Shown here piece by piece: positions 3 to 24,986 of a DNA stretch of 64,000 bases. This stretch comes from a virus. Position numbers and translations under genes: made by a program. The stretch spans positions 1 to 64,000 of the IMG/VR virus record IMGVR_UViG_3300027791_001841; one strand, given 5' to 3'. The notes beneath the pieces were generated by a model. It searched no databases and was not told the origin of the DNA. It saw only the letters and a list, made by a program, of their open reading frames with translations. Within the stretch, counting starts at the first letter, position 1. The number at the start of each line of letters is the position of its first letter.

Positions 3-353
3 TATAGAAGAATACGTTTTATGCAACTTGAACCTGGCGGCAAAATAAGTCCGCACAGTGATGCTCCTGGAAAGTTACCAGGTGAAGAAAATTTAGATAT
101 GCTTGAGTTTGGAGTACCTATTAACATAGCAATTATTCACCCAGACGACTGTCATATGACACTTGAAGGACACGGTACTGTTCCTTTTAAAGAAGGAAAG
201 GCTTTTATAATTAATATAAGAAACGTACATAGTTTTGTTAACAATTCTAACACACCTAGAATACACTTAATAGCACATGGTATACCAGGTAAACGTAAAG
301 ATGAATTTGTAGAACTTATTGCAAGAAGTTATAGGAAACAGAATGAACAATAG
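3..353 (+). CDS. 2OG-Fe(II) oxygenase-like protein, 5' end cut off by window edge
   Basis: The reading frame is open from the first bases of the window, so the true start lies upstream; the first internal ATG is at 21. The visible part has the jelly-roll oxygenase signature: a proximal metal pair in the context SPHSDAPG (His-x-Asp), a distal His in NVHSF and an Arg in PRIHL that would bind 2-oxoglutarate. This arrangement resembles aspartyl/asparaginyl beta-hydroxylases. It is the first of seven such proteins in the island and overlaps the radical-SAM gene at 343 by 11 bases, so the two are probably co-translated. The substrate is unknown. Confidence 0.65.
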   Translation, partial: YRRIRFMQLEPGGKISPHSDAPGKLPGEENLDMLEFGVPINIAIIHPDDCHMTLEGHGTVPFKEGKAFIINIRNVHSFVNNSNTPRIHLIAHGIPGKRKDEFVELIARSYRKQNEQ

Positions 354-1350
354 TATTAAAATATTAGATGTGTTCTATGGTAACAAATGCCAACTGGCCT
401 GCGCTCACTGTGATACTAGAAGTGATTACATACGTAATGGTGAGTTTGATCCTACCCTTGAAAACATATTAGAAAGTGTTACACTTGCTAGTGAACAATT
501 CAATGTAGAATGTTGGAGTGTGCTAGGAGGTGAACCATTCTTATATAAAGATACAGTTCTTGCAATAATTAAACATATCCGAAGTTTAGAAAAAGAAAAA
601 GATAAAGTTATTTTCTTTCCTACTAATGGTATTGCACTAAACAAGCCAAAGCAAATGGATTTTGCTGTAGAATTAATTAAAGAATATAAAGTGTGGATGC
701 AGATATGTAGTCATGTTGCAGCATGGGATGTTCTAATAATACATAATCAGATGTTAGAAAATGTATATACACTTGCAGCCCGTGTAGGTATACCTAAATT
801 AGAAGTAACTTCTACTTGGTGGAAAACTATAATGAACTTAGGTGGCGGTGATGCTGCTTGGGAAGAGTTTAATAACCGTAAAGGTATAGATTTAAATGAG
901 CTATCTCCTAACGAAGCAGCCTGGATGGATGCAAAGAACAAGAGTGGAATATATTATATGGAAGCTCATAGCTTTCAAAAGATACATAACAAAGATTCAC
1001 TAGGAAAGTTGAGACCGTTCAACGAAGGTGATCCAAAATCGTCATACTGGCAAGGCTGCCCTAGCTGTTTCTGTGCAATGTTGTATAACAAAAAAGTATA
1101 CAAGTGTGGAGCATTAGGAACTTTAATTAATGTGCTAACAAAGACTGGACAACTAAATGACAAAGATTGGCAACCATATATAAACTACAAGCCTGTTGAC
1201 CTAACACTTAACGATCCAAACGCCATACGTAATTTTTATGATCAACATTATACACACATCGATGCCTGTAATATGTGTCCTAAGAATGTTGATAAAGTAA
1301 AACAAAACGAACAAAACGTACTAGCCAAGTACGCAAAAAATAGGATATAG
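343..1350 (+). CDS. Radical SAM protein with C-terminal cysteine-rich (SPASM-like) region
   Basis: This 335-residue protein has the radical-SAM cluster motif CxxxCxxC at C16, C20 and C23 and a GGEP motif near residue 62, which contacts SAM. Further Cys pairs near residues 245-260 (GCPSCFC) and near the C-terminus (CNMCP) could hold an auxiliary Fe-S cluster as in SPASM/twitch proteins. I chose the ATG at 343 over an upstream TTG at 319 because it sits inside the stop region of the preceding oxygenase gene, a typical coupling. The next radical-SAM gene begins directly after its stop codon. The reaction and substrate cannot be told from the sequence. Confidence 0.8.
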   Translation: MNNSIKILDVFYGNKCQLACAHCDTRSDYIRNGEFDPTLENILESVTLASEQFNVECWSVLGGEPFLYKDTVLAIIKHIRSLEKEKDKVIFFPTNGIALNKPKQMDFAVELIKEYKVWMQICSHVAAWDVLIIHNQMLENVYTLAARVGIPKLEVTSTWWKTIMNLGGGDAAWEEFNNRKGIDLNELSPNEAAWMDAKNKSGIYYMEAHSFQKIHNKDSLGKLRPFNEGDPKSSYWQGCPSCFCAMLYNKKVYKCGALGTLINVLTKTGQLNDKDWQPYINYKPVDLTLNDPNAIRNFYDQHYTHIDACNMCPKNVDKVKQNEQNVLAKYAKNRI

Positions 1351-2184
1351 ATGCTTCGCCTTCCTGAACTTACAGTATATATTTCACACACTTGTGATCT
1401 AGCATGTGAAAGTTGTTTTACTTACAACAACTTGAACTGGGGAGGTCACTTTGAGATTGATTCATCTGTAGAAGTACTTAAAGATAAAGTTACGTTTGAT
1501 GAAATATTTATTTTAGGAGGCGAAGCAACATTGCACCCTAAGTTAGGCAAGTGGACAGAATGGGTTGAATATATGTGGCCCAACAGTAAGAAGTGGATTG
1601 TAACTAATGGTAGGCATTTAGATAAACTAAATTTAAGATGGTTTGATAACTGGCAAATAGAAATATCGGCACATTCACAAACTGATTTAACAAATATAAA
1701 ATCTTGGTTACGTGATAACAATATCACATACACTAAGTTTGTTGACAACCGTCATACTGATGCAGACATACATTACACACTAACAAAGGATAATGTAGTT
1801 GTTGGTGAATTATCTGAATCATGGCAATTCTATAAATTGCCGCATATGGTAAAAGACAAACGATCAATCACATGGCCAACACTTAGTAACATAGACGAGC
1901 AGTTTAGTTTATGCCCTACAAAAGAATGTATGCATTTACTAGACGGACGATTTTACAGATGTCAACAACAAGCCTTACTTCCAAAGTTAGCTAGACAGTT
2001 TCAAATAGAACAACCGTATAAAGATATTGCACAGCAAGATTTAGGCAGTAGTCCTGAAGAATTTATAGAGTGGAGTGATACTAGATTACAATCGCAATCT
2101 CAATGCCAATTATGCAATTGGAGTAAAAAAATTGATCTCCCAATAGAATCTGAAATTAAGAAAATTAAAGTGTTACAAGTATGA
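1351..2184 (+). CDS. Radical SAM protein
   Basis: This 277-residue protein has CxxxCxxC at C15, C19 and C22 (context SHTCDLACESC) and GGEA near residue 56 in place of GGEP. Later Cys residues in LCPTKEC, YRCQQQ and CQLC form a candidate C-terminal auxiliary-cluster region. The ATG follows the previous stop without a gap, and the 3' end overlaps the next gene by four bases (ATGA), so it is part of one operon running from the window edge to 3419. It is shorter than most SPASM enzymes. Its function is unknown. Confidence 0.78.
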   Translation: MLRLPELTVYISHTCDLACESCFTYNNLNWGGHFEIDSSVEVLKDKVTFDEIFILGGEATLHPKLGKWTEWVEYMWPNSKKWIVTNGRHLDKLNLRWFDNWQIEISAHSQTDLTNIKSWLRDNNITYTKFVDNRHTDADIHYTLTKDNVVVGELSESWQFYKLPHMVKDKRSITWPTLSNIDEQFSLCPTKECMHLLDGRFYRCQQQALLPKLARQFQIEQPYKDIAQQDLGSSPEEFIEWSDTRLQSQSQCQLCNWSKKIDLPIESEIKKIKVLQV

Positions 2185-3419
2185 ACATAGTTGAATATAA
2201 TCCTAATGGCAACAACGAACTAGTATTTTGTATTTTAGATACAACTGCCAAAATAACTGATCCGTGGATCAAAGAGCTTACTAAGAACCAAGCTGACTTT
2301 ACACTACAGAACCTCTTCTCTAAGGGCTATACAGTGCTGCAAGGCACAAGTGGGGACTTACTACTACAGGAAGCAATGAAACGCTTTAAACACGCTTGTA
2401 TGCTGTCTACGGGTACTGAATTTACTAATGGCACAACAGCAATAGATGCTCTGCTCAAAGAATGCCAACCTGACTATCTAGTTAAAGGGCATATTTTGGA
2501 TAGAGGCGATGCATATTACGAACTGCACCAACAGTGTTTTTTGGTTAACCTAACAAACTATAAAGACCTAGGGTGTCCAAAAATTGGACAACAGCAACTT
2601 GGTGAGCAGCACACACAACTAGCAGTACAACGTTCAACTAATAACTTTCATGACAGCTATACTCCTCATTGGATTAAACTAGATACGCCGTCTGGAAACA
2701 CCAAATACAATCATAAATGTCACGGATGGAATATTATTAGTGTTGCATTAAAAAAAGGGTTTTATGTTAAAGCATTTCCTGAAGATATTAGAAACAATAA
2801 AAAACATCTTTATCCTGAAAGTCCTACTGACTTTTACAAGCAGTTGGAGTATGTATATTACAAAGATAATTTTTGCAGGACCGAGCATATACATACAGAT
2901 CACACTGAACATCATAATAGGATTTACGAAAATCTAAGACAAGTAGTTGCTCCAGCAAGTGGTGAAATGTATAAATCATGGATACACAAAACTAAGCCTG
3001 TAACTGTTGTACTTTATGATTACAATGAAAGCAGTTTAGCTTACTGGAAAGAAAATGTTGAACGTTTGCCTAACGTAACATACAAATTTGTTAAATGGGA
3101 TTTACTAGGAGAGCATGTTAATATATGTGATTACCTGGAAAAACGTTACATAAAGTATACATTGTACAACATAAGCAACATTTTTTGCTATGAAGGCACT
3201 AATACACTATACAACATTAAGTATAAACTGCAAAAAGAGAACCATTTAATCAATTATTTAAAGCAAGAAATGCCAGACGCACAAATAAACTTTAGCTCAA
3301 GAACTTCAGAAGCGTTTACACCTTATAACTTATATGGGACTGCAAAAGATATTCTTGTATATAATATTGATGAATTTAAATGCCCTACTTGGCATATTAA
3401 TGATTGGTGTACTCAGTAA
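2181..3419 (+). CDS. Unknown island protein, possibly a two-domain transferase
   Basis: I do not recognise this 412-residue protein. The first part (about 1-230) has alternating hydrophobic strands and conserved-looking Gly, His and Cys residues, somewhat like a nucleotide-sugar transferase fold. The second part starts near residue 270 with VTVVLYDYNESSLAYW, which could be the beta-strand and acidic loop of a Rossmann fold such as a methyltransferase. No catalytic motif can be named with confidence. It overlaps the upstream radical-SAM gene by ATGA and its 3' end overlaps the convergent oxygenase gene by 23 bases. It probably belongs to the same pathway as its operon partners. Confidence 0.55.
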   Translation: MNIVEYNPNGNNELVFCILDTTAKITDPWIKELTKNQADFTLQNLFSKGYTVLQGTSGDLLLQEAMKRFKHACMLSTGTEFTNGTTAIDALLKECQPDYLVKGHILDRGDAYYELHQQCFLVNLTNYKDLGCPKIGQQQLGEQHTQLAVQRSTNNFHDSYTPHWIKLDTPSGNTKYNHKCHGWNIISVALKKGFYVKAFPEDIRNNKKHLYPESPTDFYKQLEYVYYKDNFCRTEHIHTDHTEHHNRIYENLRQVVAPASGEMYKSWIHKTKPVTVVLYDYNESSLAYWKENVERLPNVTYKFVKWDLLGEHVNICDYLEKRYIKYTLYNISNIFCYEGTNTLYNIKYKLQKENHLINYLKQEMPDAQINFSSRTSEAFTPYNLYGTAKDILVYNIDEFKCPTWHINDWCTQ

Positions 3420-3897
3420 CTTGTAGCACTATCCTTGGTACAAAAGAAAGATTTGCTGCACCGTGTTCGTCTTGCGAATGTGAGTATTGAAACACATCAC
3501 CTCTTTTGTAATCTGATACCATTACATCATTGTATATAAAAACATGCCCAGGAATATAATCTTGTAAAGGTACCCAATATCGTTTGCATGTGCCATCATC
3601 GTGAGTGTGTGGATCTGTATGCATAGGCATCATTTGCCCAGGTAGTAGTTTAGTGATCCACCAATGACAGTTTCCAGTTGTCCAAGGAAACTTTAGATCA
3701 ATTTGTAAGTCTTGCTGTTCATATACATACCACATTATTTTATCAAAGTTAAATGTTTCTTGACCTTGTTTCCAAAGATCTTCTTCAACAGCATTAATAG
3801 GTTCCCAATCACCAGGTCGAGCTTGACCAGTCGAGATCATTACAAGATCATTTATTTCAGGAGCTAGTGTGTTATTAAAGTTACCTACCCAATCCAT
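3397..3897 (-). CDS. 2OG-Fe(II) oxygenase-like protein (aspartyl hydroxylase type)
   Basis: This 166-residue protein has the expected metal and co-substrate residues of a 2-oxoglutarate oxygenase: H93 and D95 in MPMHTDP, distal H145 in DEHGAANL and R155 in PRIVLQ. The strand between them (GHVFIYND, then RGDVFQYSH) fits a double-stranded beta-helix. It is transcribed toward the plus-strand operon and shares 23 bases at the 3' ends. Two bases separate it from the oxygenase gene upstream, so the two form a minus-strand pair. The substrate is unknown. Confidence 0.68.
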   Translation of the reverse strand: MDWVGNFNNTLAPEINDLVMISTGQARPGDWEPINAVEEDLWKQGQETFNFDKIMWYVYEQQDLQIDLKFPWTTGNCHWWITKLLPGQMMPMHTDPHTHDDGTCKRYWVPLQDYIPGHVFIYNDVMVSDYKRGDVFQYSHSQDEHGAANLSFVPRIVLQVTEYTNH

Positions 3898-3899
3898 AT

Positions 3900-4715
3900 T
3901 TAATAATGATCCAGTGTGTCAATGCCTAGCTGTTTGCGAAATGCATTTGAAAATTTGCAATCAATACGTAAGCCGTATTCTACTTCTTTAGAACTTTCAC
4001 CGCCATGCCAATCTTGGTCGTTCCAAAATGCTGCGTTGCAGTTGAGGTACTGTTTGTTTTCACTTTCGGGATCCCAAATATAAAATCCTCTCTTTGTGCG
4101 ATAGCGTATATGTATGAATTCATTATTGTGCGGACTGTATTGCTTATCATCGTGTACTCCATTATTAGCGTCCAGGTCTCTGTGTTCAAATGCTTTGCCA
4201 TTATGGTCGCAATGGAAAAATATAACTCTACCAATACGATCAATAATACCTTCATTTTGCATACTTTGCACCCAGTTAACTACACCCGGAAAATACTTTG
4301 ACTCTTCAGTTAATTGTCTTTCTGCATTACGCTCATTCCAGTCTCCTTCATTCCATAAAAAGTAATAAATGTAAGGATCATTTGCTCCCATAGTAGCTTT
4401 AAGATAGCGAGTAAAAATATTACGCTGTTTGTAGTCGCCAAAATCTTTAGGAAGTATTAGTTGTCCTTGTACTTTAATAGGATCGTCATCAGGCAATGCT
4501 TCGTATTCTTCCATAGCTTTATAAATTGGTTTCCAATCTAATATGTAACTAGAATCTTTCCAATCAAAACCAGGTGCCATCCAGGTGCCTTCTTTAGCAT
4601 AATCTCTTGCTAATGCAAATCCTTTAGCAATCTCCGGATGCAAATTTTTGAAACCTGTGATGTCTAAGTATGGGTCTAAGTTAATATAAGGCTTACCGCC
4701 AATTCCTCTAATCAT
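3900..4715 (-). CDS. 2OG-Fe(II) oxygenase-like protein
   Basis: This 271-residue protein has the oxygenase signature in its second half: H178 and D180 (FEHRDLD), distal H237 (DWHGGES) and R250 (YGLRID). The first 150 residues are a helical extension that I do not recognise. Its start is 26 bases from the divergent gene at 4742, and the reverse strand there has a TAAGTA element exactly five bases before the ATG, a near match to the late-type motif seen elsewhere in the window. No Shine-Dalgarno sequence is evident, so the message may be leaderless. Confidence 0.65.
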   Translation of the reverse strand: MIRGIGGKPYINLDPYLDITGFKNLHPEIAKGFALARDYAKEGTWMAPGFDWKDSSYILDWKPIYKAMEEYEALPDDDPIKVQGQLILPKDFGDYKQRNIFTRYLKATMGANDPYIYYFLWNEGDWNERNAERQLTEESKYFPGVVNWVQSMQNEGIIDRIGRVIFFHCDHNGKAFEHRDLDANNGVHDDKQYSPHNNEFIHIRYRTKRGFYIWDPESENKQYLNCNAAFWNDQDWHGGESSKEVEYGLRIDCKFSNAFRKQLGIDTLDHY

Positions 4716-4720
4716 AGTAA

Positions 4721-4736
4721 TACTTATCGTTAAATA
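4721..4736. promoter_or_regulatory. Back-to-back late-type promoter motifs between divergent genes
   Basis: The 26-base gap between two divergent genes holds TAAATA at 4731-4736 on the plus strand, five bases before the ATG at 4742, and TAAGTA on the minus strand (4726 to 4721), five bases before the ATG at 4715. In T4 the late element TATAAATA ends about five bases before the transcription start, so both start codons would sit at or near +1. The plus-strand motif is an exact core match; the minus-strand one has one mismatch. Confidence 0.5.
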
Positions 4737-4741
4737 ACAGC

Positions 4742-5434
4742 ATGAACACTAACTTTGAATATTACTACAACAACGTTCCCGGAAAAGGCCTTTGCCGCAA
4801 TAACTTAATATACACCAGTCTTGTTGACAATAACAAGAAACAGTTTTGTCAATGGTACTACAATGATACTGACTATCACAAAGGACACAATCAAGTAGTT
4901 GATCCTAATTTAATGGATGAAAAGTTTGAACGTGAAATAAAATTCCTTAGTATAATGCGTAAAGAGTATCCTCAGCACATACCTGCATATACTGTAGATT
5001 ACGAATGGCGTAAAATATATTTAGAAATTGACGGACCAGACATGTGGGAATTAGCGGGCTGTAATACAAATGATTATACATCTGTACTACCAGACTGGGA
5101 CATACAAATGTTAGAAATTATTCAAGCACACAAAGACTTAGGATTATACAAATACAGTATGCACCCTAGCAGTTATTTTATTGTAGACGGTAAACTAAAA
5201 AGTATGAATTACTTCTTTACATATGATAATAATGATGTTAATATTAGCTTACGTAGTGTAATGAGTCATATCAGTGAAGATAGACAAGCAGACTTATTTC
5301 CTAAAATGGAAACAATGGGCATTGATGTCGATGCACCTACTAATCATAATGCTATACAACAGCTGGCGTTTGAAAGTTTTAAAACTAACTTTCGTGACGA
5401 TGTAATGGAAAAGGCAAAACAAATATATGCATAA
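4742..5434 (+). CDS. Kinase-fold-like protein, paralogue of the gene at 8710
   Basis: This 230-residue protein looks like a degenerate protein-kinase or LPS-kinase fold. A helix with acidic residues (EREIKFLSIMRKEY) could be the C-helix, KIYLEIDG resembles the hinge, and YKYSMHPSSYFIVDGKLK sits where a catalytic loop of the form HGDLHPGN...DGKLK would be. The catalytic Asp appears to be replaced by Ser, and the metal-binding DFG-like Asp by Asn in MNYFF. It may therefore be a pseudokinase. The gene at 8710 has the same layout. The ATG lies five bases after TAAATA, with no clear ribosome-binding site. Confidence 0.5.
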   Translation: MNTNFEYYYNNVPGKGLCRNNLIYTSLVDNNKKQFCQWYYNDTDYHKGHNQVVDPNLMDEKFEREIKFLSIMRKEYPQHIPAYTVDYEWRKIYLEIDGPDMWELAGCNTNDYTSVLPDWDIQMLEIIQAHKDLGLYKYSMHPSSYFIVDGKLKSMNYFFTYDNNDVNISLRSVMSHISEDRQADLFPKMETMGIDVDAPTNHNAIQQLAFESFKTNFRDDVMEKAKQIYA

Positions 5435-5987
5435 AATGATAGAATGGAATGAAGACTTAGACTTGTCTGAATTTTATAGTGAGGCAACTCGCAGAGGCTT
5501 CGTCAATAATGCTAGTCAAAAGGCTATGATTGATTGTTTTCATAACGAACGTGAGTGGAATGCTTGGATACTGTATAACGGTGATAAAGCAATAGGCAGT
5601 GTAGCAGCACACTCGTTTGATGATGTTATGGGTCCTAACTCATATAGGATACTTACAAGAGTATGTACATTTGGCGAAGCAAGGCCGCACAACGGATTAG
5701 TAAAAGCAAATCGACTTTGTGCTGAACATCAAAATCTTACAGATCAATTTATGCTTCCTGTTTGTTTAGAATGGACAAAAGATAAAGGTAGAGTGTTTGC
5801 TACTTCAAACAAAAGTAAAGAAGGGAGTCAGCGTCTAGTACACTCTATATATTTTCCTACACTTGCTAAGATAGGTGTGGTAAGTAAAATTAAAGAAGTG
5901 CATTACAGGCATACTGATCAAACTGTGTGGGAAATACATCCTGACAAATTTTATGAAAATTTAGAACTGTATCCGAGATGGGTCTAA
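5427..5987 (+). CDS. Unknown protein, possibly GNAT-like acyltransferase
   Basis: This 186-residue protein has a strand and turn pattern (WNAWILYNGDKAIGSVAAHSF, then YRILTRVCTF) that is compatible with the central sheet of a GNAT acetyltransferase, but I cannot see a convincing acetyl-CoA pyrophosphate loop. It overlaps the kinase-like gene upstream by eight bases; an alternative ATG follows three codons later at 5436. The 3' end overlaps the convergent dehydrogenase gene by 27 bases. Function within the island is unknown. Confidence 0.5.
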   Translation: MHKMIEWNEDLDLSEFYSEATRRGFVNNASQKAMIDCFHNEREWNAWILYNGDKAIGSVAAHSFDDVMGPNSYRILTRVCTFGEARPHNGLVKANRLCAEHQNLTDQFMLPVCLEWTKDKGRVFATSNKSKEGSQRLVHSIYFPTLAKIGVVSKIKEVHYRHTDQTVWEIHPDKFYENLELYPRWV

Positions 5988-6560
5988 GTTAGGATTAATA
6001 CGCTCTAGTTCTGCACGTAGATGATCTGTCAGCTTCCAACGAAATTCAACTTGTCTAATAGTAGGCTTGCCTGCCCAAAAGATAATAGTATCTACTACAT
6101 CTTCTAAAGGAGTAGTAGAGTCACTTAAAAATTCTGCAGGATCATCTCCACTTACTGTAGTTCCTTCGAGAAAGCCTAAGTCTAAATGCAAAACAGGAAT
6201 ACCATCAGGATTAATACTTTCTAATCGGCACGCCTCTGCAAGTTCTTGTTTATCTTGTACATAGTCTGTTGGAATAAGCTCGGGGTAAAGTCTGCTTACA
6301 CTGCCCATAACAACCATCATATCTACTTTATCTTTGAGTGCATTAAATAATTTTAACTGCTGCTGATCTCTATAAGCATTGTTAATAAAAATTTCTGCTC
6401 CTGCGGCTTCTTCTACAACTTTATCAAAATCTTTTTCAATATCGTATCCGTTGCTACGACTCATACCTATAATCTCATGACAGCTTACTTCTGTAAACTT
6501 ATCAAAAATTGCTTTACCAATACCGCTAGTGTGTCCTGTGATTACTATTTTTTTAGTCAT
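5961..6560 (-). CDS. Short-chain dehydrogenase/reductase (SDR)
   Basis: This 199-residue protein is an NAD(P)-dependent SDR. The cofactor loop is TGHTSGIG near residue 8, the structural motif is NNAY near residue 58 (NNAG in classical members), the catalytic Ser is in MGSVSR, and the YxxxK pair is in YVQDK. All key residues are present, so it should be active. It is slightly short for an SDR (about 250 residues is usual), mainly through a reduced C-terminal substrate part. It lies directly downstream of a second SDR in a seven-gene minus-strand operon that starts at 10139. Confidence 0.8.
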   Translation of the reverse strand: MTKKIVITGHTSGIGKAIFDKFTEVSCHEIIGMSRSNGYDIEKDFDKVVEEAAGAEIFINNAYRDQQQLKLFNALKDKVDMMVVMGSVSRLYPELIPTDYVQDKQELAEACRLESINPDGIPVLHLDLGFLEGTTVSGDDPAEFLSDSTTPLEDVVDTIIFWAGKPTIRQVEFRWKLTDHLRAELERINPNLDPSRIQF

Positions 6561-7019
6561 TTATATTGTAAACCTAATTTCGTTAATTGTGTCATTTTCC
6601 ATCCAATAGTCTAATGTATTGTGTATTGTTTGATATTCGTTTACTGCTGTTCCTGTAAGTGTTAATAACAGTATACTTGCTTTACATGTATTACGAGATT
6701 GTGATAATTCAATTACTCTTTCACGCAGGTTCTTTTTGTCTAGACTATACACAGGCATATTAGGATCAGGCGAGTCTGCTGCAATACTACCACTTACTAT
6801 AATTTTGATGTTATAGTCTTTTAGTGTTTCTATATAGTTTATTTGCGTGCCGTCTGCGTAAGCGTTACAAACAAAAACATCACAAGTTTTAGCAACTGCA
6901 ATTACTTCATCAAACGAACTGTTTTTACTAAACTCTTTTACATCAGAATTTTTAAGTTTGAAATATGCTGAAAGGAGTTGCCCTAAACCTTTTGATCCGC
7001 CTAATACTACAACTTTCAT
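6561..7019 (-). CDS. Small SDR-like oxidoreductase, paralogue of its neighbour
   Basis: This 152-residue protein has a Rossmann loop GGSKGLG at residues 6-12, a CNAY motif where classical enzymes have NNAG, a Ser after the next strand (VSGSIA) and YSLDKK supplying YxxxK. It is much shorter than a normal SDR and lacks most of the substrate-binding region, so it may work as a partner of the SDR at 5961. I chose the ATG at 7019, which overlaps the upstream stop as ATGA, over an ATG 14 codons earlier. Substrate unknown. Confidence 0.68.
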   Translation of the reverse strand: MKVVVLGGSKGLGQLLSAYFKLKNSDVKEFSKNSSFDEVIAVAKTCDVFVCNAYADGTQINYIETLKDYNIKIIVSGSIAADSPDPNMPVYSLDKKNLRERVIELSQSRNTCKASILLLTLTGTAVNEYQTIHNTLDYWMENDTINEIRFTI

Positions 7020-7630
7020 TCTACCCTCGGACCGTTGGCAATAAAGAAAGCTGCTATCCATTTTGCGCCTTTGGTAATTGGCATGCCTTCGTGTATTGTC
7101 ATTTTATTGATTATTTCATCATCGTAGTCGTATTCAAAATACATCATGCCGCCTTTCATAGGTACAACACTAACGGCTAATTCAGGAAACTTGCATTCTC
7201 CACCATCGTATCCGTCATTCAACCAAAAGATTGCAGTTGCTTTTCTATCGCCGCCTTTGGCATAGTACGCAATATCTTCAGGTGTGTACGGAAAGTCATG
7301 ATGTAGGCCAAAGTACTGCCCGGTATCATATCTATAAATGTCACCAGCTTCAATATGGCTGTCAGGTATCTTTAATACTTCGCAAATTTTATCTCTAAAA
7401 AACTGTCTATCTTCAGGTGAAGTGTCCCAACTAATACTACGCTGTTCTACTTCTTCTGTAATCTGTCCGTAGGTTTGTTCTCTAGATTCTAATCCTGCGT
7501 TTGGATTCATTCCTAACTCATTATACTTTTTAACAAACTTATCACAAGTTTTATCGTCTAACACATCTTTGTAAACCATGATCCATGGATGATCTAAATA
7601 TAAAATATTTTCCATTACCATGCGTTCCAT
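7016..7630 (-). CDS. Prolyl-4-hydroxylase-like 2OG-Fe(II) oxygenase
   Basis: This 204-residue protein is the clearest oxygenase in the island. It matches the prolyl-4-hydroxylase alpha family: H110 and D112 in GLHHDFPY, distal H180 in TIHEG and K190 (ITKGAKW) as the 2-oxoglutarate ligand, with GGECKFPEL and KGGMMYFEY as the connecting strands. Similar phage proteins are common in marine T4-like viruses. Three in-frame ATGs (7630, 7621, 7615) are possible; the last forms a TAATG overlap with the upstream stop. The target could be a protein residue or a small molecule. Confidence 0.82.
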   Translation of the reverse strand: MERMVMENILYLDHPWIMVYKDVLDDKTCDKFVKKYNELGMNPNAGLESREQTYGQITEEVEQRSISWDTSPEDRQFFRDKICEVLKIPDSHIEAGDIYRYDTGQYFGLHHDFPYTPEDIAYYAKGGDRKATAIFWLNDGYDGGECKFPELAVSVVPMKGGMMYFEYDYDDEIINKMTIHEGMPITKGAKWIAAFFIANGPRVE

Positions 7631-10139: not shown

Positions 10140-10853
10140 GTAGATTTCCCCATTGATCCAAATTGGAGAAATATTGGCATAAGCCTTAGCGGTGGTGCAG
10201 ACAGTGCATTATTAACATATTTGATATGTAAAAATTTACCTGTAAATTGCAGGGTACATATTAGTACACAGATACGCTGTTGGAAAACAAGGCCATGGCA
10301 AGAACACATTTCAGCTGAAGTGTTTGATTGGTTTATTGCTAAATTTCCAGAACTTGAATTTATAAGACACACAAACTTTATACCACCCGATCTGGAAGAA
10401 CCACACACAACTATGATCAAAGACGAAAATGGTAAAATGAAATCTGGAAACAGAATTATTTTACGATCGTTTAATGAGTATCTAGCACACAAGGAAAAGT
10501 TAGATGCATGGTTTGCAGGAGTAACATTAAACCCTGATGTAGAGTTAGAAGGTGCATTAAATGATAGACAAACACCATCAATAGATGCTATAATGTTACA
10601 TATGGGAGTTACAGTTTGTCACCCATTTATAGAAACTAGAAAAGATTGGATTATTGGGCAATTTATAAAATATGATATTGCCGAGTTACTTAATATAACA
10701 AGAAGTTGCGAAGGTGATAATGAGCAATATCCGGAAGTGTTTAAAGGATTAGACTACGCAACATACAAGCCAGGACAATATGTTCCAACATGTAAAAAAT
10801 GTTTTTGGTGCCAAGAAAGACAATGGGGAGTTACCAATGCCATGCAACAGTAA
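10113..10853 (+). CDS. QueC-like PP-loop ATPase
   Basis: This 246-residue protein has the PP-loop motif SLSGGADSALL near residue 24, which binds ATP for adenylation. The C-terminus has four Cys in an order like the QueC zinc site: one in TRSC, then TCKKCFWCQER. QueC makes preQ0 (7-cyano-7-deazaguanine) from carboxy-deazaguanine and ammonia. A QueD-like gene occurs at 22049, but QueE and FolE are not evident here. The 25-residue spacer between the first Cys and the Cys cluster is longer than in typical QueC, so a different amidation or thiolation role within the radical-SAM island remains possible. Confidence 0.65.
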   Translation: MRKWIKIDHVDFPIDPNWRNIGISLSGGADSALLTYLICKNLPVNCRVHISTQIRCWKTRPWQEHISAEVFDWFIAKFPELEFIRHTNFIPPDLEEPHTTMIKDENGKMKSGNRIILRSFNEYLAHKEKLDAWFAGVTLNPDVELEGALNDRQTPSIDAIMLHMGVTVCHPFIETRKDWIIGQFIKYDIAELLNITRSCEGDNEQYPEVFKGLDYATYKPGQYVPTCKKCFWCQERQWGVTNAMQQ

Positions 10854-12108
10854 AACTTTTTGTATGCATCCTTTTACAGGATTAGCAACTAGAGAAGATG
10901 GCGCAATTAAGATTTGTTGCCGCAGTGCTCCTATTGGCGATATCAAAGATAACACACTAGAAGAAATTTGGAACGGAGACAAGATTAAAGAGGTACGCCG
11001 GCAGGTAATGAATGACGAACGACCTGAAGTATGCGCACCTTGTTTTAGGTTAGAAGACCAAGGAGTTCAAAGTTTACGTCAGCGACATATAGAAGGTGTC
11101 ATACCAGAAGCTAGGATTAATTTATATCCCAATGCATTAGACGCCTTAGAAGATGATTATTCAATGCCATTTGAAATACCTACAATGGAAGTAAAGTTAA
11201 ACAACTTATGTAATCTTAAATGTCGTATGTGTAACCCGTTAGATAGCACACAATGGAAAGACTGGGATCAAGTTACAGAATTTTACAAAAAAGAAAATAA
11301 CTTTCTCATTCCAACAGTTAATGCACTGGTTAAAAAGCCAGGTCAATATATTGATGCATTTGAAGATACAGATAATTGGTGGAGTAGTTTTAAGAAACTA
11401 TTGCCCTACTTTAGACGAGTAGAGTTTGCAGGCGGCGAACCATTAATGGATCCTCAACATTATAAAATTTTAGATATGTTAGCACCGTATGGAGAGAACA
11501 TTGAATTAAAGTATGCTACTAACGGAACTACACTTGGTATTAAGGGCGGTCGAACTGTACACGAATATTGGCCTAAGTTTAAAAGTGTTGCTGTTAATGT
11601 AAGCATAGACGGTATACACGATATCTATGAATACATTAGAGGCAATGGCAAGTTTATTGAGATTGAAGAAAATATTAAAATTATGAAAACAATTCCTACA
11701 GTTAGTAGAATTGTTGGAGCATTTACTGTACAGTCAAACAATATAATGCAAATTGATAAAGTAATTGAGTACTTTATGGAGAACATGGAAATTATATTCT
11801 ACAGTCATAGAGTACAATATCCTAAGGCGTTATCAGCACAGGTTATTCCTAATGAACTAAAACTACAAGTAATTGATAAACTAGAAGCAATGAAAGAAAA
11901 AGTTTTAGATTACAAACTTGTAAAAAGTGATAGCAGAATTAAAGATTTTACGTTAACGCAGATTCAGGATAATATTAACTTCTTACAAGCAGACGATTTA
12001 CACGACGAGTTATGGCAAGACTGTATTAACTTTAATCGTAACTTAGACAAAAGTCGTAAGCAAGGACCGTTTGAAGTTATAAATCCAGAGTTTGCGCCGT
12101 ATGTTTAA
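10837..12108 (+). CDS. Radical SAM protein with N-terminal SPASM/twitch-like domain
   Basis: This 423-residue protein begins with a Cys-rich segment (C9, C27, C28, C66, C69) with the motif TLEEIWNGD, which is typical of a SPASM/twitch domain that normally follows the core. Here it precedes the radical-SAM core, whose CxxxCxxC is at C125, C129 and C132 (NLCNLKCRMC), with GGEP downstream. The protein at 14000 has the same order, so the two are paralogues. I chose the ATG at 10837, eight bases after GGGGAG, over one 19 codons upstream. It overlaps the QueC-like gene by 17 bases. Substrate unknown. Confidence 0.8.
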   Translation: MPCNSKTFCMHPFTGLATREDGAIKICCRSAPIGDIKDNTLEEIWNGDKIKEVRRQVMNDERPEVCAPCFRLEDQGVQSLRQRHIEGVIPEARINLYPNALDALEDDYSMPFEIPTMEVKLNNLCNLKCRMCNPLDSTQWKDWDQVTEFYKKENNFLIPTVNALVKKPGQYIDAFEDTDNWWSSFKKLLPYFRRVEFAGGEPLMDPQHYKILDMLAPYGENIELKYATNGTTLGIKGGRTVHEYWPKFKSVAVNVSIDGIHDIYEYIRGNGKFIEIEENIKIMKTIPTVSRIVGAFTVQSNNIMQIDKVIEYFMENMEIIFYSHRVQYPKALSAQVIPNELKLQVIDKLEAMKEKVLDYKLVKSDSRIKDFTLTQIQDNINFLQADDLHDELWQDCINFNRNLDKSRKQGPFEVINPEFAPYV

Positions 12109-13015
12109 AATAGCTTCTAGTTATGATCGACAAGATAGCGTTCATGTTGAATGGAATTTAGGTAAACGCTGTAACTTAGATTGTAGTTATTGCCCAGCAG
12201 CAATTCATGACAACACTAGCCCGCACACAAATATTAAAGTATTGTTAGATGCAGTTGATGCACTAGGGGAAATTGGCAAGCCAATACGTGTAAGTTTCAC
12301 AGGCGGTGAGCCGTGTGTTCATCCACAGTTTGTAGAACTAGTCGATCATGCAATGCAAGGTCAACAGCTTGAGTGGGTTAACGTAACTACCAACGGAACC
12401 CGCACAGCCCAGTACTACAACGATCTTAATGTAAGTCACATTGTGTTTAGTTTGCACGTAGAAGATACTGAAAATTGGAGACGATGCGCAGAAACAGTAT
12501 TATTGTTTTCTCAATTAAATGAAGGTGCGTATACACAAAAGCCATTTCAAGTTAACTTAATGGCACACCATCAATTTATGGATAGAGTAAAAGAATGTGC
12601 TACGGTGTTTGACAGCCATAATATTCCGTTTGTTGTAAGACGAATACGATGGACAGAAGGAGACCATGATGTATTTGATGATTTAAAATATGATGGTAAA
12701 GATTTAGAATGGATATTAGACAGAACGTCTACCGTAAATCCTAATGTAATTATTGACGACACAACTAAGATGCATGCCAACGATGTTATTAAACAACACC
12801 TAAATCAATTTAAAGGTTGGAAATGCAGTGCAGGAATTGAAAGCCTAATGATTAATTGGGACGGCGATGTACATCGTGCTACTTGTAGAGTAGGTGGAAG
12901 TATAGGTAACATCTATGATGGCAGTTTTGAGCAGCCTGAAGAATGGATAACTTGTACTCGTAAATGGTGTACGTGTGCTGCTGATATACCTCTTACAAAG
13001 GTACTGCAGGAATAA
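12101..13015 (+). CDS. Radical SAM protein
   Basis: This 304-residue protein has CxxxCxxC at C24, C28 and C31 (KRCNLDCSYC), GGEP near residue 68, and TTNGTR on the next strand, so the SAM-binding core looks complete. The C-terminal part has Cys residues in GWKCSAG, ATCRVGG and CTRKWCTC, a candidate auxiliary-cluster domain that is shared with the genes at 12993 and 17087 (GW or DW-x-C, then a final C-x-C or C-x2-C). The ATG at 12101 overlaps the upstream stop. The 3' end overlaps the convergent gene by 23 bases. Confidence 0.8.
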   Translation: MFKIASSYDRQDSVHVEWNLGKRCNLDCSYCPAAIHDNTSPHTNIKVLLDAVDALGEIGKPIRVSFTGGEPCVHPQFVELVDHAMQGQQLEWVNVTTNGTRTAQYYNDLNVSHIVFSLHVEDTENWRRCAETVLLFSQLNEGAYTQKPFQVNLMAHHQFMDRVKECATVFDSHNIPFVVRRIRWTEGDHDVFDDLKYDGKDLEWILDRTSTVNPNVIIDDTTKMHANDVIKQHLNQFKGWKCSAGIESLMINWDGDVHRATCRVGGSIGNIYDGSFEQPEEWITCTRKWCTCAADIPLTKVLQE

Positions 13016-14003: not shown

Positions 14004-15406
14004 AGTAAATGTGATAACTCCGGAAATACTGATGCGGCATTCAAGCCACGGATTGCATCTAATTTATTTACATACTCTTTAAAGCCAGGTAACATATGAC
14101 TGTTATCACAACTATCCATGTGCTTTAGTAACCCTTCCCATTGGCGCCAACCTTTAGGATTGTGTTTCCAAAACTCATCGTCTTGTGTAAAGTTGTTCCA
14201 TAACCATTGTTTTAGTTCAGCGAACTTTTCACGTACTTCTTGCTTGTCTTTTTCAGGCAGTATTGTAATATTTAAAAATGTTGGTATGTGTACTAAGTGT
14301 GCATTTAAAAGGCCGCCTCCCATAATATGTCCATCAATCAAACCAACATTCATCTTTTTAAAATTACTATTAACTTTCCATTTAATAAATTCGGGTATAG
14401 TTTTTATATTGAATATTTGTACTGCTGTTGCAATGCTAACATGAATGTTGTCGGGAGTGTTATCTAGTAAATGTAATGTGCTTTCAACTTGTTTAAAGTT
14501 AGTTGGAAATCTGATGTATTCGTCACGCTCTTTATACGAGTCGATACTTACTGCAAATTTAACTTTCTTAAACTTACTCCATATATCAATTAACTCGTTG
14601 TCAACTAGCAAACCATTGGAGTTGTACCTTACTAAAATTTTGTCAGCATAGCCCTGTGTAATAATTTCTTTAAGAAAGCGTTTATGCTCTTTGATCATTA
14701 ACGGCTCTCCTCCAGCAAAATATACTTGTTTAAGGTAAGGTATTTGCGCATTGAGTTCTTGCCAAAAAGCATCTTTTTCGTGCCATTTGTTGTTAAAAAG
14801 TTTCTTATCCCATTGCATTTGTCTTTTAACTTCTGGGTCTTGTAGTACAGGAATAAGTTTTTTATGGTCCGCAACCCACTTACTTGAATCATGCGGGCTA
14901 CACATTACACACTTAATATTGCATGTATGTCCTAATCTTAGATCCAGATATTTTAATTGTTCAGGCACGGTTCCGTCTTCTTGTGTTTGTGCAATAAGTT
15001 CTGGTATATCAATACCTTCATCATTTTTCCATGTTGCACTTTCCCATATACGTTTGCTAACAATGCCTTGTGACTCTTCTTTGAAACATCCTTTACAACT
15101 TGCAGGGATCTCTCCTTTAAGCATAGTTGTACGTACACTTTTCATGTAATCGTTATTCCATGCTTCCATTGGAGTATGTTTGCCAAAGTTTGCAGGTTTG
15201 CCATCTTCCATTTTTACAAGACCAACTTCGTGATCGTCTCCAGCTCCACTAGCATTAGCAGTACAACATAAGCGCATATCACCGTTAGGCCTAGTTGCCA
15301 TGTGTATCCACGGAAGTACACAAAACGTACTACTAGAAACAGATTCAAGCTCTCTTTGAAACTTGCCTAATCTAGTATCTTCTTTATCGTAGTGCCAATC
15401 TGTCAT
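14000..15406 (-). CDS. Radical SAM protein with N-terminal SPASM/twitch-like domain
   Basis: This 468-residue protein has the same domain order as the one at 10837: an N-terminal Cys-rich segment (C29, C47, C48, C104, C107, with PMEAWNNDYM) followed by the radical-SAM core with C162, C166 and C169 (HTCNIKCVMC) and FAGGEPLM. The paralogues lie in two operons of opposite strand. The C-terminus (about 330-468) is a further domain without recognised motifs. It is coupled by ATGA to both neighbours. Confidence 0.8.
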   Translation of the reverse strand: MTDWHYDKEDTRLGKFQRELESVSSSTFCVLPWIHMATRPNGDMRLCCTANASGAGDDHEVGLVKMEDGKPANFGKHTPMEAWNNDYMKSVRTTMLKGEIPASCKGCFKEESQGIVSKRIWESATWKNDEGIDIPELIAQTQEDGTVPEQLKYLDLRLGHTCNIKCVMCSPHDSSKWVADHKKLIPVLQDPEVKRQMQWDKKLFNNKWHEKDAFWQELNAQIPYLKQVYFAGGEPLMIKEHKRFLKEIITQGYADKILVRYNSNGLLVDNELIDIWSKFKKVKFAVSIDSYKERDEYIRFPTNFKQVESTLHLLDNTPDNIHVSIATAVQIFNIKTIPEFIKWKVNSNFKKMNVGLIDGHIMGGGLLNAHLVHIPTFLNITILPEKDKQEVREKFAELKQWLWNNFTQDDEFWKHNPKGWRQWEGLLKHMDSCDNSHMLPGFKEYVNKLDAIRGLNAASVFPELSHLL

Positions 15407-16485
15407 AACATTTCTCTTTCAATAAATTGATCTTGTGGTTGTGAGATATTAAATGTTTTAAACTTACCACATGTTCTTGCACACATTAGCATTTTATCTT
15501 CATTCCATTTCTTTTTCCATATGTTTTGCCAAACGTCAGAGTCAATAATATTTTTTATTCCTTTAGTTGCATCAAGATTGCTTATACCGCCAAAGTCACT
15601 TATCATTTTACTATATTGTCCTCTTAACATATCTATAACATCTTCGCAAACATGTGCAGGATCATAATGAGTCATTGGAGTTTGTGCTAACCAACAACAT
15701 GGTAATACTGTTTTAGAACCATCAATGTATATTTCTTTTATTTGTTGTACATGACAATCTATTTCTGCTTCGTCTAAAACTGATTTATAATTGTCAATAA
15801 CTTCTTTAGGTAAAAAGTGTGTTTCGGTATCAGATGGTGCTTCTAAACTATACAGTGGAATTTTATTTTTATCCCATACATCATACTTAGGCTCAACTAA
15901 AAATCTTGATGTGTTTTTAACTGTGAAATCTTGGAAGCCTAAATCTTTTGCAATTTGTCTACATTCATCAACTTGGTGCTCGTTGTGTTTGAATTTGATA
16001 TATGTCCAGTTAGCACGGCCTCCGGCTGCAATAAATGTTTTTGCATTTTCAATAATACGATTCCAATCTGTGCCAACTCTATATAATTTATGAGTGTCTT
16101 CTAGTCCGTCAAGAGCAAAGTAAACGCAATGGTCTTCTGGTAATGCTTTTGCTAGATCTGACCACCATTTTGCATTCCTTAAACTACCGTTTGTATGTAT
16201 ACCTATTGCTGTCTTAGGACTGGTGTCCTTTACATATCTGCACATATCAATAAGACTGTCATTTAGTAATGGATCGCCAAAGTTACCACAGAAGTACGCA
16301 CGGTTAATTGTGTCTAATACTTCTTTGTTAATAATAGTTTTAAAATCGTCCAATGTCCATTGTACTATTCGTAATAGCGGATTTTCTACTCCGCTGTGTA
16401 TGTTTCTTGAACACATTGGACATTTTGCTTGACAGTTTGTTGTTAGCTCAATGTGAATAGTTTTTAGATCATTAAAGTCAAACAT
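15403..16485 (-). CDS. Radical SAM/SPASM protein with altered GGEP motif
   Basis: This 360-residue protein has CxxxCxxC at C18, C22 and C25 (TNCQAKCPMC). Where most radical-SAM proteins carry GGEP it has CGNFGDPLL, a change seen in some SPASM subfamilies. The C-terminal half has LPCCWLA and a final CARTCG that would bind an auxiliary cluster. Of the eight radical-SAM proteins here it looks most like a peptide-modifying SPASM maturase, but no precursor peptide gene is visible next to it. It is coupled to its neighbours by short overlaps. Confidence 0.78.
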   Translation of the reverse strand: MFDFNDLKTIHIELTTNCQAKCPMCSRNIHSGVENPLLRIVQWTLDDFKTIINKEVLDTINRAYFCGNFGDPLLNDSLIDMCRYVKDTSPKTAIGIHTNGSLRNAKWWSDLAKALPEDHCVYFALDGLEDTHKLYRVGTDWNRIIENAKTFIAAGGRANWTYIKFKHNEHQVDECRQIAKDLGFQDFTVKNTSRFLVEPKYDVWDKNKIPLYSLEAPSDTETHFLPKEVIDNYKSVLDEAEIDCHVQQIKEIYIDGSKTVLPCCWLAQTPMTHYDPAHVCEDVIDMLRGQYSKMISDFGGISNLDATKGIKNIIDSDVWQNIWKKKWNEDKMLMCARTCGKFKTFNISQPQDQFIEREML

Positions 16486-17087
16486 TAAAGGTTTCCTATA
16501 ATCATAAATCTTTTGTACTTAGGTAATTCTAATTCAGCTGAGTGTAATACTTTTAACTTAGACTTTCTTGCAAATTCTTCTAATGATGCACTACAGTTAA
16601 CATGTTCTTCAAGGTCAAAATAGTTATTTGATTGTAATATTATCTTCGAGCCTTCTGGAACATTACTTAACCATTTATTATATTGTTGTTGACTAATATG
16701 TTCGCAACTTGTATTAATAACAAAATAAGGTTTATTTGTATATTCGTAATCACACATATCTGATGTTACTGCTATAAAACGTCCTTCCATTTCTTGACGT
16801 TTGTTAATTGTCAGTGCAACGGTTTCGCATACAGGATCAATGTCTACACTTGTAATATGTTTAAACCCTATGCTACTATTAAACAGCATGTTAGCTAACA
16901 CTCCATTCCATCCACCAAATATAACTACTTCAGCATTGGCAACATGATTAGACTTTTCTAAAGTTTCAATTAACCAAGTTTTTGATTTTAACTGGCCTCC
17001 CCAAAAACTTTCAAGTGTACGGTCTCTATCTTCGCTGTTGCGAATAGCGTCCATCCAAAACTTTATATCTTGAATATCAATCTTCAT
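16485..17087 (-). CDS. Class I SAM-dependent methyltransferase-like protein
   Basis: This 200-residue protein has a Rossmann methyltransferase pattern: motif I as VVIFGGWNGVLANML (near residue 54), an acidic strand end in TSVDIDPVC, and a motif-IV-like segment YFVINTSCEHIS. The enzyme would transfer a methyl group from SAM; the acceptor is unknown. The ATG overlaps the upstream radical-SAM stop as TAATG, so both are made together. Methyltransferases often accompany radical-SAM enzymes in natural-product pathways, which is an inference from context only. Confidence 0.65.
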   Translation of the reverse strand: MKIDIQDIKFWMDAIRNSEDRDRTLESFWGGQLKSKTWLIETLEKSNHVANAEVVIFGGWNGVLANMLFNSSIGFKHITSVDIDPVCETVALTINKRQEMEGRFIAVTSDMCDYEYTNKPYFVINTSCEHISQQQYNKWLSNVPEGSKIILQSNNYFDLEEHVNCSASLEEFARKSKLKVLHSAELELPKYKRFMIIGNL

Positions 17088-18067
17088 TACTTTACCTTTG
17101 GTATCTTACTGTCTGCACTACTTACACATGTATCGGTAATACACTTAGTTGGTGTCTTAAACAGCGTAAAACCGCCCTGTAGCGTACCTAATGGTTTATC
17201 GCTACAACTATATGCTCTCTTGACAGTATCACCGCTTATAATGCAGCTTTGATATCCTGCGTTACATGTCCAATCTTTAAATTTATTAAATCCAAAAGCG
17301 TTCATGCGTTCAGCTTGGTCCAACCCATAGTCGTTGCCTTTGGCATCTTCCATGTACATTTGCATTACTTCTTTTTCTTTCCAGTGCTGTGGGAATCCTC
17401 TTTGCATTCTTGTGATTTGTTCTTCAGTGTATCCATGTACAACGAAAGATGCGGTGGGGTCAGATTGGGGTTTGAGAGTGACATTGATACCTCTGGTGGC
17501 AAATCGTTCCAGGCGTTCGTAAAGTTCCTCAAACATTTCAGGAACCATAACTTGATTGATCGTAACATAAACTCCTCCTTTCATAAGCTGAAGACATTTA
17601 TCTCCAAACTCTTGTTCATTAGCAAACTCTGCATGATAACTTGCAGTAATACTTCGACGGTGTAAATGCTGTGTAGCATCAATAAATCTGTTCCACCATT
17701 TACTACCTGGACTTAAATTCGTTGTTAGATGCAAACTTAGATACTTAGCATCATCATCGTTGGCATAGTGTTCTATTAAATCACCAAACTTCTTATACGC
17801 AGTAGGCTCACCACCACTAAAGCTAAAGTGGAATTCTGTAAAGCCATTATCTCTAGCCTGACGTTTTATCTCATCAAGCGCATTAGTATATATTTCAAAC
17901 TCCTGATGATCCGGTACATTCGTGTTTGCATACGGCCAACAGTAGCTACAACTGTAATTACAAAAGCGGCCTAATATCCAGCTAACATTAAACAATGGCT
18001 GGTCAAGCATGGTCTTTTGCCCAAACTTAACAATATTGTGAAACGGTATTAAAGTAAAATCATTCAT
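17087..18067 (-). CDS. Radical SAM protein, first gene of minus-strand operon
   Basis: This 326-residue protein has CxxxCxxC at C36, C40 and C43 (RFCNYSCSYC), SGGEPT near residue 83, and C-terminal Cys in DWTCNAGYQSC, YSCSDKP and CITDTC. It resembles the proteins at 12101 and 12993. I chose the ATG at 18067 over an earlier one at 18130, because the longer form would run through the consensus promoter of the divergent histone-like gene. On the minus strand a TAAATA motif lies eight bases before this ATG, and no Shine-Dalgarno is visible. Confidence 0.78.
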   Translation of the reverse strand: MNDFTLIPFHNIVKFGQKTMLDQPLFNVSWILGRFCNYSCSYCWPYANTNVPDHQEFEIYTNALDEIKRQARDNGFTEFHFSFSGGEPTAYKKFGDLIEHYANDDDAKYLSLHLTTNLSPGSKWWNRFIDATQHLHRRSITASYHAEFANEQEFGDKCLQLMKGGVYVTINQVMVPEMFEELYERLERFATRGINVTLKPQSDPTASFVVHGYTEEQITRMQRGFPQHWKEKEVMQMYMEDAKGNDYGLDQAERMNAFGFNKFKDWTCNAGYQSCIISGDTVKRAYSCSDKPLGTLQGGFTLFKTPTKCITDTCVSSADSKIPKVK

Positions 18068-18094
18068 TATATACGTATTTAACCACTTTAATGC

Positions 18095-18123: not shown

Positions 18124-18168
18124 AGAACATGCAGCAAACGAATGCCGCATTTTAAAAGGAAAAATAGT

Positions 18169-23314: not shown

Positions 23315-23317
23315 TGA

Positions 23318-24130: not shown

Positions 24131-24148
24131 AGATAGTAATATAATATT

Positions 24149-24973: not shown

Positions 24974-24986
24974 AAAAGGAACTACT

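Follow-up and report, generated by a model that had tools for sequence, protein, structure and literature searches.

Islands of genes for radical S-adenosylmethionine (rSAM) enzymes have been described in several groups of phages. In the marine, T4-like pelagimyophages, a hypervariable island by the tail-fibre genes, named the host recognition cluster (HRC), was reported in 2020 to carry rSAM cassettes and glycosyltransferases, and is defined as the variable island between VrlC and gp14, containing tail fibres and glycosyltransferases (PMC7029224). Earlier, 11 and 12 rSAM genes were described in the Campylobacter phages CP220 and CPt10, where five rSAMs and a putative amidinotransferase belong to a module of 10–12 genes that is called interchangeable (PMC2853527, 2010), and 12 rSAM genes plus a virus-encoded Fe-S assembly gene were noted for the 183-kb T4-like TARA_ERS488813_N000010 (PMC5332604, 2017). 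Here, we describe an island of 23 genes, among them eight rSAM and seven 2-oxoglutarate (2OG)-Fe(II) oxygenase-like genes, at positions 3–18067 of a 64,000-base stretch of viral DNA (the window), which comprises bases 1–64000 of the 80,893-base IMG/VR fragment IMGVR_UViG_3300027791_001841; the left end of the record is window position 1. Tentatively, and at somewhat short of probable, we read it as a modular island for tailoring a sugar or glycan, carried by a marine T4-like phage and situated, like the pelagimyophage HRC, in the vicinity of tail-fibre genes. The observations from which this reading starts are the gene content and order, their conservation, the presence or absence of single cassettes, the tail fibres nearby, and, in relatives, genes for glycosyltransferases and epimerases next to the core.

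Comparison with described systems

Like the HRC, the island lies near tail-fibre genes and varies by single genes, with the reservations that the record is a fragment and that VrlC is absent from the stretches searched. The cultured SAR11 phage Mosig EXVC030M has relatives of the methyltransferase-like core gene (MT), of rSAM families R21 and R19, of 2OG families O01/O12, of an epimerase family (EPI), and of a GT8-like gene of the window; because the Mosig island has tail fibres on one side and VrlC on the other, we infer that it is an HRC. The window's island differs from both in its much larger number of rSAM (8) and 2OG-like (7) genes and in containing no glycosyltransferase, and the B-family DNA polymerase of the window finds its closest cultured-phage match in the Pseudomonas jumbo phage PA5oct (53%). 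CPt10 proteins match the profiles of R18/R19 and of the amidinotransferase-like family X51; however, the 49-kb CPt10 stretch matches no profile of 2OG, MT, or GT13 (glycosyltransferase-fold family), and the twitch rSAM families are never the best match of its proteins (once the second-best, 1.5e-11). TARA_ERS488813_N000010 is likened to the window by description alone, its rSAMs being listed as Fe-S proteins in a portion of the paper that gives no island order, 2OG set, or product (PMC5332604). The fourth system is cellular. Bdellovibrionota arrays hold proteins of the NCBIfam family NF033640 (N_Twi_rSAM) in tandem with relatives of O01 (Asp_Arg_Hydrox), MT, GT13, R21, and R23 and a QueC-like protein, but with up to 33 NF033640 matches per genome and in an order that differs from the phage core. 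A literature search by titles and abstract openings, with preprints and most subscription journals outside its range, returned no description of an rSAM+2OG island or of the Bdellovibrionota arrays. As far as the searches went, the new elements are the combination of rSAM with 2OG genes, the core with its conserved order, and its equivalent in Bdellovibrionota; multi-rSAM phages have been in print since 2010.

Radical-SAM and oxygenase genes of the island

The open reading frames (ORFs) lie where an earlier, sequence-only reading of the window had placed them, and its remark that nearly all gene ends overlap holds for 18 of the 22 island junctions. The rSAM genes are as follows.

343..1350, + strand: rSAM R02; PF04055 41.9 bits, CxxxCxxC at residue 16
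1351..2184, + strand: rSAM R03, divergent; PF04055 16.3 bits, E 0.012, below cut-off
10780..12108, + strand: rSAM R17, N-terminal twitch type; NF033640 319.7 bits, cut-off 170
12101..13015, + strand: rSAM R18; PF04055 48.6 bits
12993..14003, - strand: rSAM R19; PF04055 48.3 bits, cleanly missing from loci L016 and L018
14000..15406, - strand: rSAM R20, N-terminal twitch type, core gene; NF033640 397.8 bits, cut-off 170
15403..16485, - strand: rSAM R21; PF04055 34.8 bits
17087..18067, - strand: rSAM R23, core gene; PF04055 47.1 bits

Pfam PF04055 exceeds its curated cut-off in seven of these eight genes, and all eight proteins carry CxxxCxxC and further cysteines. The remaining one, R03, reaches 17.3 bits (E 2e-4) in a six-frame search, and its family profile links to other island rSAM families, so the eight rSAM genes counted earlier stand, R03 as a weak but related member. 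The N_Twi_rSAM cut-off of 170 bits is passed by two of the eight (R17 and R20), the rest being below it or unlisted. Among the NCBIfam families listed, no island rSAM passes any other cut-off, and a metabolic identity drawn from another named family was rejected.

The 2OG-like genes number seven.

3..353, + strand: 2OG oxygenase, aspartyl/asparaginyl beta-hydroxylase type, 5' end cut; PF05118 34.3 bits, cut-off 22.6
3397..3897, - strand: 2OG-like, family O12; invariant HxD...H
3900..4715, - strand: 2OG-like, family O06; invariant HRD...H in 8 rows, AlphaFold2 (AF2) fold
7016..7630, - strand: 2OG oxygenase, family O11; PF13640 44.6 bits, cut-off 27
7615..8142, - strand: 2OG-like, family O12; invariant HxD...H, hhalign to O15
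8139..8723, - strand: 2OG-like, family O12; invariant HxD...H
9396..10139, - strand: 2OG oxygenase, family O15; family profile against the PDB beta-hydroxylase 7v4f, E 3e-14

The earlier count of seven is upheld by Pfam in two cases, by a PDB profile in one, by an invariant motif shared within a family together with weaker profile evidence in three, and by a predicted fold in one. In family O12 (genes at 3397, 7615, and 8139), H, D, and H are invariant over 16 aligned rows; its best PDB match has an E-value of just 0.15, yet falls on the same chain as that of O15 (7v4f), and the profile–profile alignment of the two (hhalign) gives E 1e-4 with the motif in register, at a probability of only 56%. 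For O06, the PDB sequence search was empty and profile–profile comparison with the other two 2OG families gave no convincing link; its AF2 model (pLDDT 81) has 84 Foldseek matches at E <=0.001, and the 50 of these that are listed bear, with few exceptions, titles of 2OG oxygenases, at low query-normalised TM-scores (0.23–0.37). On motifs, profiles, and this predicted fold, the seven proteins thus appear to belong to the 2OG-Fe(II) oxygenase superfamily, on evidence of unequal strength. Elsewhere, a 2OG oxygenase fused with a cold-shock domain is encoded at L090:13026-14063, its family being related to that of window gene 7016–7630.

The gene at 3..353 is incomplete because position 1 is the contig end, and the island is probably longer than the sequence-only reading described, its left side being cut off there. 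At the far right end of the record (L101), the island families F99 and X72 reappear; comparison with genome G005 suggests that the island runs on past the window, across contig ends. Wherever it could be computed, dN/dS against three relatives is <=0.40 for each gene, some comparisons being saturated, identical, or without an ortholog.

Conserved core and exchangeable genes

A search with the R20 protein found 283 related viral stretches, of which the nearest 80 (>=74% identity) were kept. Among these, R20 is present in 80, MT in 78, R23 in 68, R21 in 67, R18 in 61, R17 in 54, R19 in 46, O15 in 38, PP in 36, O12 in 36, and K in 35; many of these loci are short contigs. Each of the 80 loci has 3–11 genes of rSAM families, which contradicts the possibility, raised with the sequence-only reading, that related phages carry such genes singly and in unrelated places. 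The core runs R23-MT-(R21)-R20-(R19) and faces R18-R17-PP, after which O15, K, and O12 commonly follow. When a 41%-identical R20 served as the query, 42 loci of a sister lineage were obtained, commonly ordered GT13-MT-R21-R20 and with up to 12 rSAMs per 21 kb; 41 of the 42 have 2–12 rSAMs, a single one being found in L230 (a 6-kb contig), and 34 of the 42 are without a 2OG-family match. The MT profile is found in at least 482 viral stretches.

The size of the set, which had seemed unusual, proved not to be so: across the whole records of 12 chosen relatives, 6–15 rSAM matches each were found (E <=0.001, not all over cut-off), and large phage rSAM sets were published in 2010 and 2017 (PMC2853527; PMC5332604). 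In a 169-kb relative, all 15 matches lie within 16.5–53.4 kb, while a 159-kb relative has 10 at 20–34 kb and 5 at 115–123 kb. Against cultured phages, tblastn found R20 in three phages, R17 in ten Vibrio phages, R18 in eight Campylobacter phages, and MT in one phage; with O15, the PP-loop protein, and GT13 there was none. The cultured jumbo phage Vibrio phage K566 (L103:21543-38916) has five twitch-type rSAM matches. Small proteins of about 82–89 aa are conserved in single-lineage islands, in 5 loci each (L070:8542-8787, L070:13281-13547, and L034:1286-1537).

Single genes are present or missing between close relatives. Contig L011 is 99.3% identical to the window over 9392–18759 and 95.3% over 5526–9401, with one extra gene between those at 9396 and 8710 (kinase-like), an epimerase whose family scores 131 bits to GDP_Man_Dehyd; farther out, its genes differ. 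R19 is, in turn, cleanly missing in L016 and L018. Epimerase families recur in relatives (131 bits to GDP_Man_Dehyd, 153 bits to Epimerase). The sequence-only reading had proposed one multistep pathway; because single genes are cleanly present or absent between relatives, an interchangeable tailoring kit is preferred over one fixed linear pathway. Within a related island, L051:7848-9407 is a gene of the flavin tryptophan-halogenase type (Trp_halogenase 312.9 bits; family of 8 members), and an AMP-binding-like protein in relatives scores 22.5 bits, below cut-off.

Glycosyltransferase context

The side of the core beyond R23 is visible in 46 viral loci (22 further loci, which end beside R23, were left out). 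In 31 of these, a GT13-family gene is at most four genes from R23; histone-like/ThyX genes stand there instead in 13, the window's clade included, and neither in 2. By our count, GT13 is also present in 35 of the 42 sister-lineage loci. A PDB sequence search with GT13 gave no match, and one multi-domain member has a sub-threshold Pfam GT2 hit. Judged from the model (pLDDT 88.7), the GT13 family, found in relatives and not in the window, is predicted to have a GT-A fold; Foldseek matches include the WrtF fucosyltransferase, RmlT, SunS, and sugar nucleotidyltransferases, with E 4e-5 and worse and low TM-scores.

In Mosig, the space from the tail-fibre genes to VrlC is occupied by a similar island, in which Pfam identifies a DegT/StrS aminotransferase, an O-carbamoyltransferase, an epimerase, TauD, Asp_Arg_Hydrox, and rSAM. 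Its proteins match the island profiles of MT (3e-23), R21 (4e-23), and R19 (8e-12), and also those of O01, O12, EPI, and the window's GT8-like gene. Pfam left four of ten Mosig proteins without a hit; the depositors had annotated two of these four as molybdenum-cofactor enzymes, and one of the two matches R21.

Cellular relatives

In a single scan, bacterial and archaeal genomes yielded 83 relatives of R20, many of them labelled Bdellovibrionota. In 14 genomes picked from those hits, 2–33 NF033640 matches each were found (E <=0.001, not all over cut-off). A 40-kb portion of a 936-kb Bdellovibrionia contig encodes a QueC-like PP protein together with relatives of R20, R21, R23, GT13, and MT. 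Arrays of the N_Twi_rSAM type were likewise observed in the Bdellovibrionia metagenome-assembled genomes (MAGs) G021 and G017 (e.g., L182-L186), with 33 and 22 matches, accompanied by Asp_Arg_Hydrox in G021 and by uncharacterised proteins. Among 111 proteins neighbouring 14 cellular loci, 7 match GT2, 2 WbsX, and 2 TylF. Two of ten genome bins tested contain phage contigs, because gp23 is present in them. Three loci were not taken as cellular: L104, labelled archaeon, is a 3.5-kb contig 68% identical to a phage protein; L106 (G015:C6, labelled Rickettsiales) has a viral record of likewise 46,940 bases; and L115 (G020:C3, labelled Gammaproteobacteria) has gp23 on the same contig. L115 and L106 are apparently phage contigs binned into bacterial MAGs.

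Other genes of the island and its flank

The eight other island genes are given below.

2181..3419, + strand: X04, 412 aa, conserved in islands; no Pfam match
4742..5434, + strand: kinase-fold protein; family profile against PDB protein kinases E 4e-6, without HxD
5427..5987, + strand: acetyltransferase-like (label from the sequence-only reading, unconfirmed); no Pfam match, conserved in islands
5961..6560, - strand: oxidoreductase resembling short-chain dehydrogenases/reductases (SDR-like); adh_short 16.9 bits, below cut-off
6561..7061, - strand: SDR-like, divergent; profile-related to 5961–6560
8710..9399, - strand: kinase-fold protein; family profile against PDB protein kinases E 4e-6, without HxD
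10113..10853, + strand: PP-loop (QueC-like) enzyme; GGADSALL and a C-terminal Cys motif invariant in 9 rows
16485..17087, - strand: class-I methyltransferase-like (MT), core gene; no Pfam match

Several labels of the sequence-only reading hold in part. Of its two SDRs, the one at 5961 is SDR-like below cut-off and that at 6561 is related to it by profile, but has no SDR match of its own, its best Pfam match being a weak one to Glycos_transf_1 (E 0.004). The two kinase-like proteins have the kinase profile match but HPSS or YPHC in the alignment in place of the HxD catalytic motif; they may share a kinase-like fold, their catalysis being doubtful. The PP-loop motif is invariant, and the QueC match is weak (13.3 bits, cut-off 22), though a chromosomal relative passes at 27.6. 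For the methyltransferase, which Pfam does not match, the GGWNG and SxDID motifs are invariant in 12 rows and the relative in Mosig is deposited as a methyltransferase; the label methyltransferase-like rests on these motifs, on conservation, and on that deposited annotation. PDB sequence searches with the PP-loop, MT, and X72 families gave nothing useful. Relatives of X04 occur in other islands and next to N_Twi-type rSAMs on a Bdellovibrionia chromosome.

Rightward of the island, the following features are of interest.

20528..21337, + strand: tail-fibre-like protein near the island; PHROG tail fibre E 8e-7, virion structural protein E 2e-8
22049..25810, + strand: flank block, possibly sugar-related; PTPS-like, DAHP/KdsA-type synthase, GT8-like, one gene without label, PMM-like HAD
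27719..34375, + strand: tail fibre; PHROG tail fibre E 3e-44
48337-48765 and 49017-49385, + strand: two IscU-like Fe-S scaffold genes; NifU_N 136.8 and 175.5 bits

In the flank block, Pfam gives PTPS 47.3 bits (at 22049), DAHP_synth_1 180 bits, and PMM 97 bits; we read the DAHP-type synthase as KdsA-type. The phage genes of the window include ThyX and tail fibres, and further ORFs may be ClpA-, PhoH-, and clamp-loader-like by our reading. At 18091–18363, a small protein stands beside ThyX at the island border in the window's clade; it is histone H1-like by reading of its sequence, not by database match. No RNA family reached its Rfam gathering threshold within the window, and a tRNA scan of the window found none.

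Proposed function and alternatives

How might a sugar-tailoring island operate? Activation and attachment of a sugar would, in most relatives, be the work of the neighbouring GT-A glycosyltransferase. In the window's clade, they would possibly fall to the GT8-like, KdsA-type, and PMM-like genes some 5 kb from the island, to a gene in the missing part, or to host enzymes. Radical C–H chemistry by the rSAM enzymes would bring about epimerisation, deoxygenation, dehydrogenation, or C-methylation; hydroxylation or desaturation would be left to the 2OG enzymes, and completion of the product to the MT, PP-loop, SDR-like, and acetyltransferase-like proteins. The product would then decorate an envelope glycan of the infected cell or the virion, altering receptor recognition or superinfection. 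The two phage IscU-like genes could serve the many Fe-S enzymes by supplying clusters.

A number of observations weigh against such a role. No island enzyme falls in a family with a known sugar substrate, and the weak NCBIfam matches of the island rSAMs are mostly to peptide maturases and cofactor enzymes. The window's island, the left side of which is missing, contains no glycosyltransferase, and the Glyco_transf_8 match of the flank (13.7 bits) is below cut-off. SunS, whose substrate is a peptide, is an S-glycosyltransferase among the fold matches of GT13. VrlC, as said above, is absent from the stretches searched. The glycosyltransferases among cellular neighbours are a minority (7 of 111, among the 25 listed of 181 matched families, without a control set). 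The 2OG–cold-shock fusion hints at nucleic acid, and the conserved 73-aa protein of the sister lineage and the QueC/PTPS-like genes hint at other substrates.

A bolder formulation, which we consider possible though clearly less than probable, is that of a virus-borne combinatorial rSAM/2OG module, shared with Bdellovibrionota chromosomes, that would build a hyper-modified glycan or glycosylated peptide of an undescribed chemical class, phages altering its structure by swapping single rSAM, 2OG, and epimerase genes.

An unlikely reading, though the least unlikely of the alternatives, is that the substrate of the enzymes is a ribosomal peptide, or else a tail fibre or other protein of the virion, in the manner of ribosomally synthesised and post-translationally modified peptides (RiPPs), with rSAMs cross-linking or epimerising and 2OG enzymes hydroxylating Asp/Asn. 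Peptides are frequent substrates of twitch/SPASM-type rSAMs and of beta-hydroxylases. A conserved, Cys-free protein of about 73 aa is encoded in the sister lineage, its family covering 27 loci, with 32 profile hits over all loci (L189:3051-3272, L105, and L115 among them; L106, L187, and L219 are apparently one contig). Among 28 tabulated hits, the gene comes directly after MT in 22 and before R21 in 17, and it is possible that the protein is a carrier, a scaffold, or a peptide substrate. The SunS match of the GT13 fold and the flavin halogenase of relatives (312.9 bits) point the same way, such halogenases being known from RiPPs according to the title of a paper. However, the gaps of the window's island contain no ORF of >=25 aa (ORFs inside longer genes would escape), with overlaps at 18 of 22 junctions, and 87% of 1,696 gaps across 123 stretches are <=30 nt. 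The conserved short ORFs of the window's clade lie outside the island (the histone-like gene, frames over it, and a 40-aa ORF) or are cut rSAM ends. The 73-aa protein, moreover, is conserved end to end and without Cys, and most RiPP precursor cores are unlike such a protein. Among the window proteins scanned with Pfam, there is no RRE/PqqD-like hit. A RiPP precursor in the window's island was rejected, its gaps holding no candidate and the 73-aa candidate occurring in the sister lineage only.

That the island instead makes a diffusible small molecule, aminoglycoside- or nucleoside-like, which would inhibit, for example, competitors or host functions, seems distinctly unlikely to us. The flavin halogenase, the AMP-binding-like protein (below cut-off), and the epimerases of relatives would fit such a product, as would the amidinotransferase-like X51 (its profile is matched at E 1.5e-6 by a CPt10 gene carrying that annotation), the carbamoyltransferase and StrS-type aminotransferase of Mosig, and the best PDB match of O15, titled a hydroxylase of a nucleoside-antibiotic pathway. 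But no gene for export, resistance, or scaffold synthesis was recognised in the window's island by the Pfam scans, and a free metabolite would presumably be of little gain to a lytic phage.

We regard modification of nucleic acid, either DNA hypermodification or tRNA modification, as very unlikely. The QueC-like PP-loop protein, the PTPS/QueD-like gene at 22049, weak QueE-like matches of the rSAM at 343–1350, and the 2OG–cold-shock fusion in L090 speak for it. A 7-deazaguanine (QueC/D/E) pathway was nevertheless rejected: PTPS is over cut-off with 47.3 bits, but QueC (13.3 against 22) and QueE are below theirs. The PTPS gene, furthermore, lies outside the conserved core, in a family present in 8 of the viral loci compared, all of the window's clade by gene map; the Pfam scan of the island proteins gave no TET/JBP, hydroxymethylase, or DNA glycosyltransferase hit; and the core genes are found on Bdellovibrionota chromosomes.

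That the genes are just an accumulation of independent auxiliary metabolic genes, boosting the metabolism of the host and having no product in common, as was proposed for Campylobacter phages (PMC2853527) and as the coming and going of single genes might suggest, is hardly likely at all because the order and orientation of the core are kept over large divergence, while the core families also stand together in cells and N_Twi_rSAM is the sole NCBIfam family (of those listed) whose cut-off the island rSAMs reach.

Implications

The island is common, at least 482 viral stretches encoding the MT core gene. If the sugar- or glycan-tailoring reading is true, the small genomes of marine viruses would be remarkably rich in radical and oxygenase chemistry, which would serve as a set of exchangeable tools in the arms race over recognition of the cell surface. 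A laboratory relative exists (Mosig, with SAR11 strain HTCC1062), and the product can therefore be sought directly. It would also give a function to N_Twi_rSAM, which is just a subfamily name in NCBIfam and has up to 33 matches per Bdellovibrionota genome.

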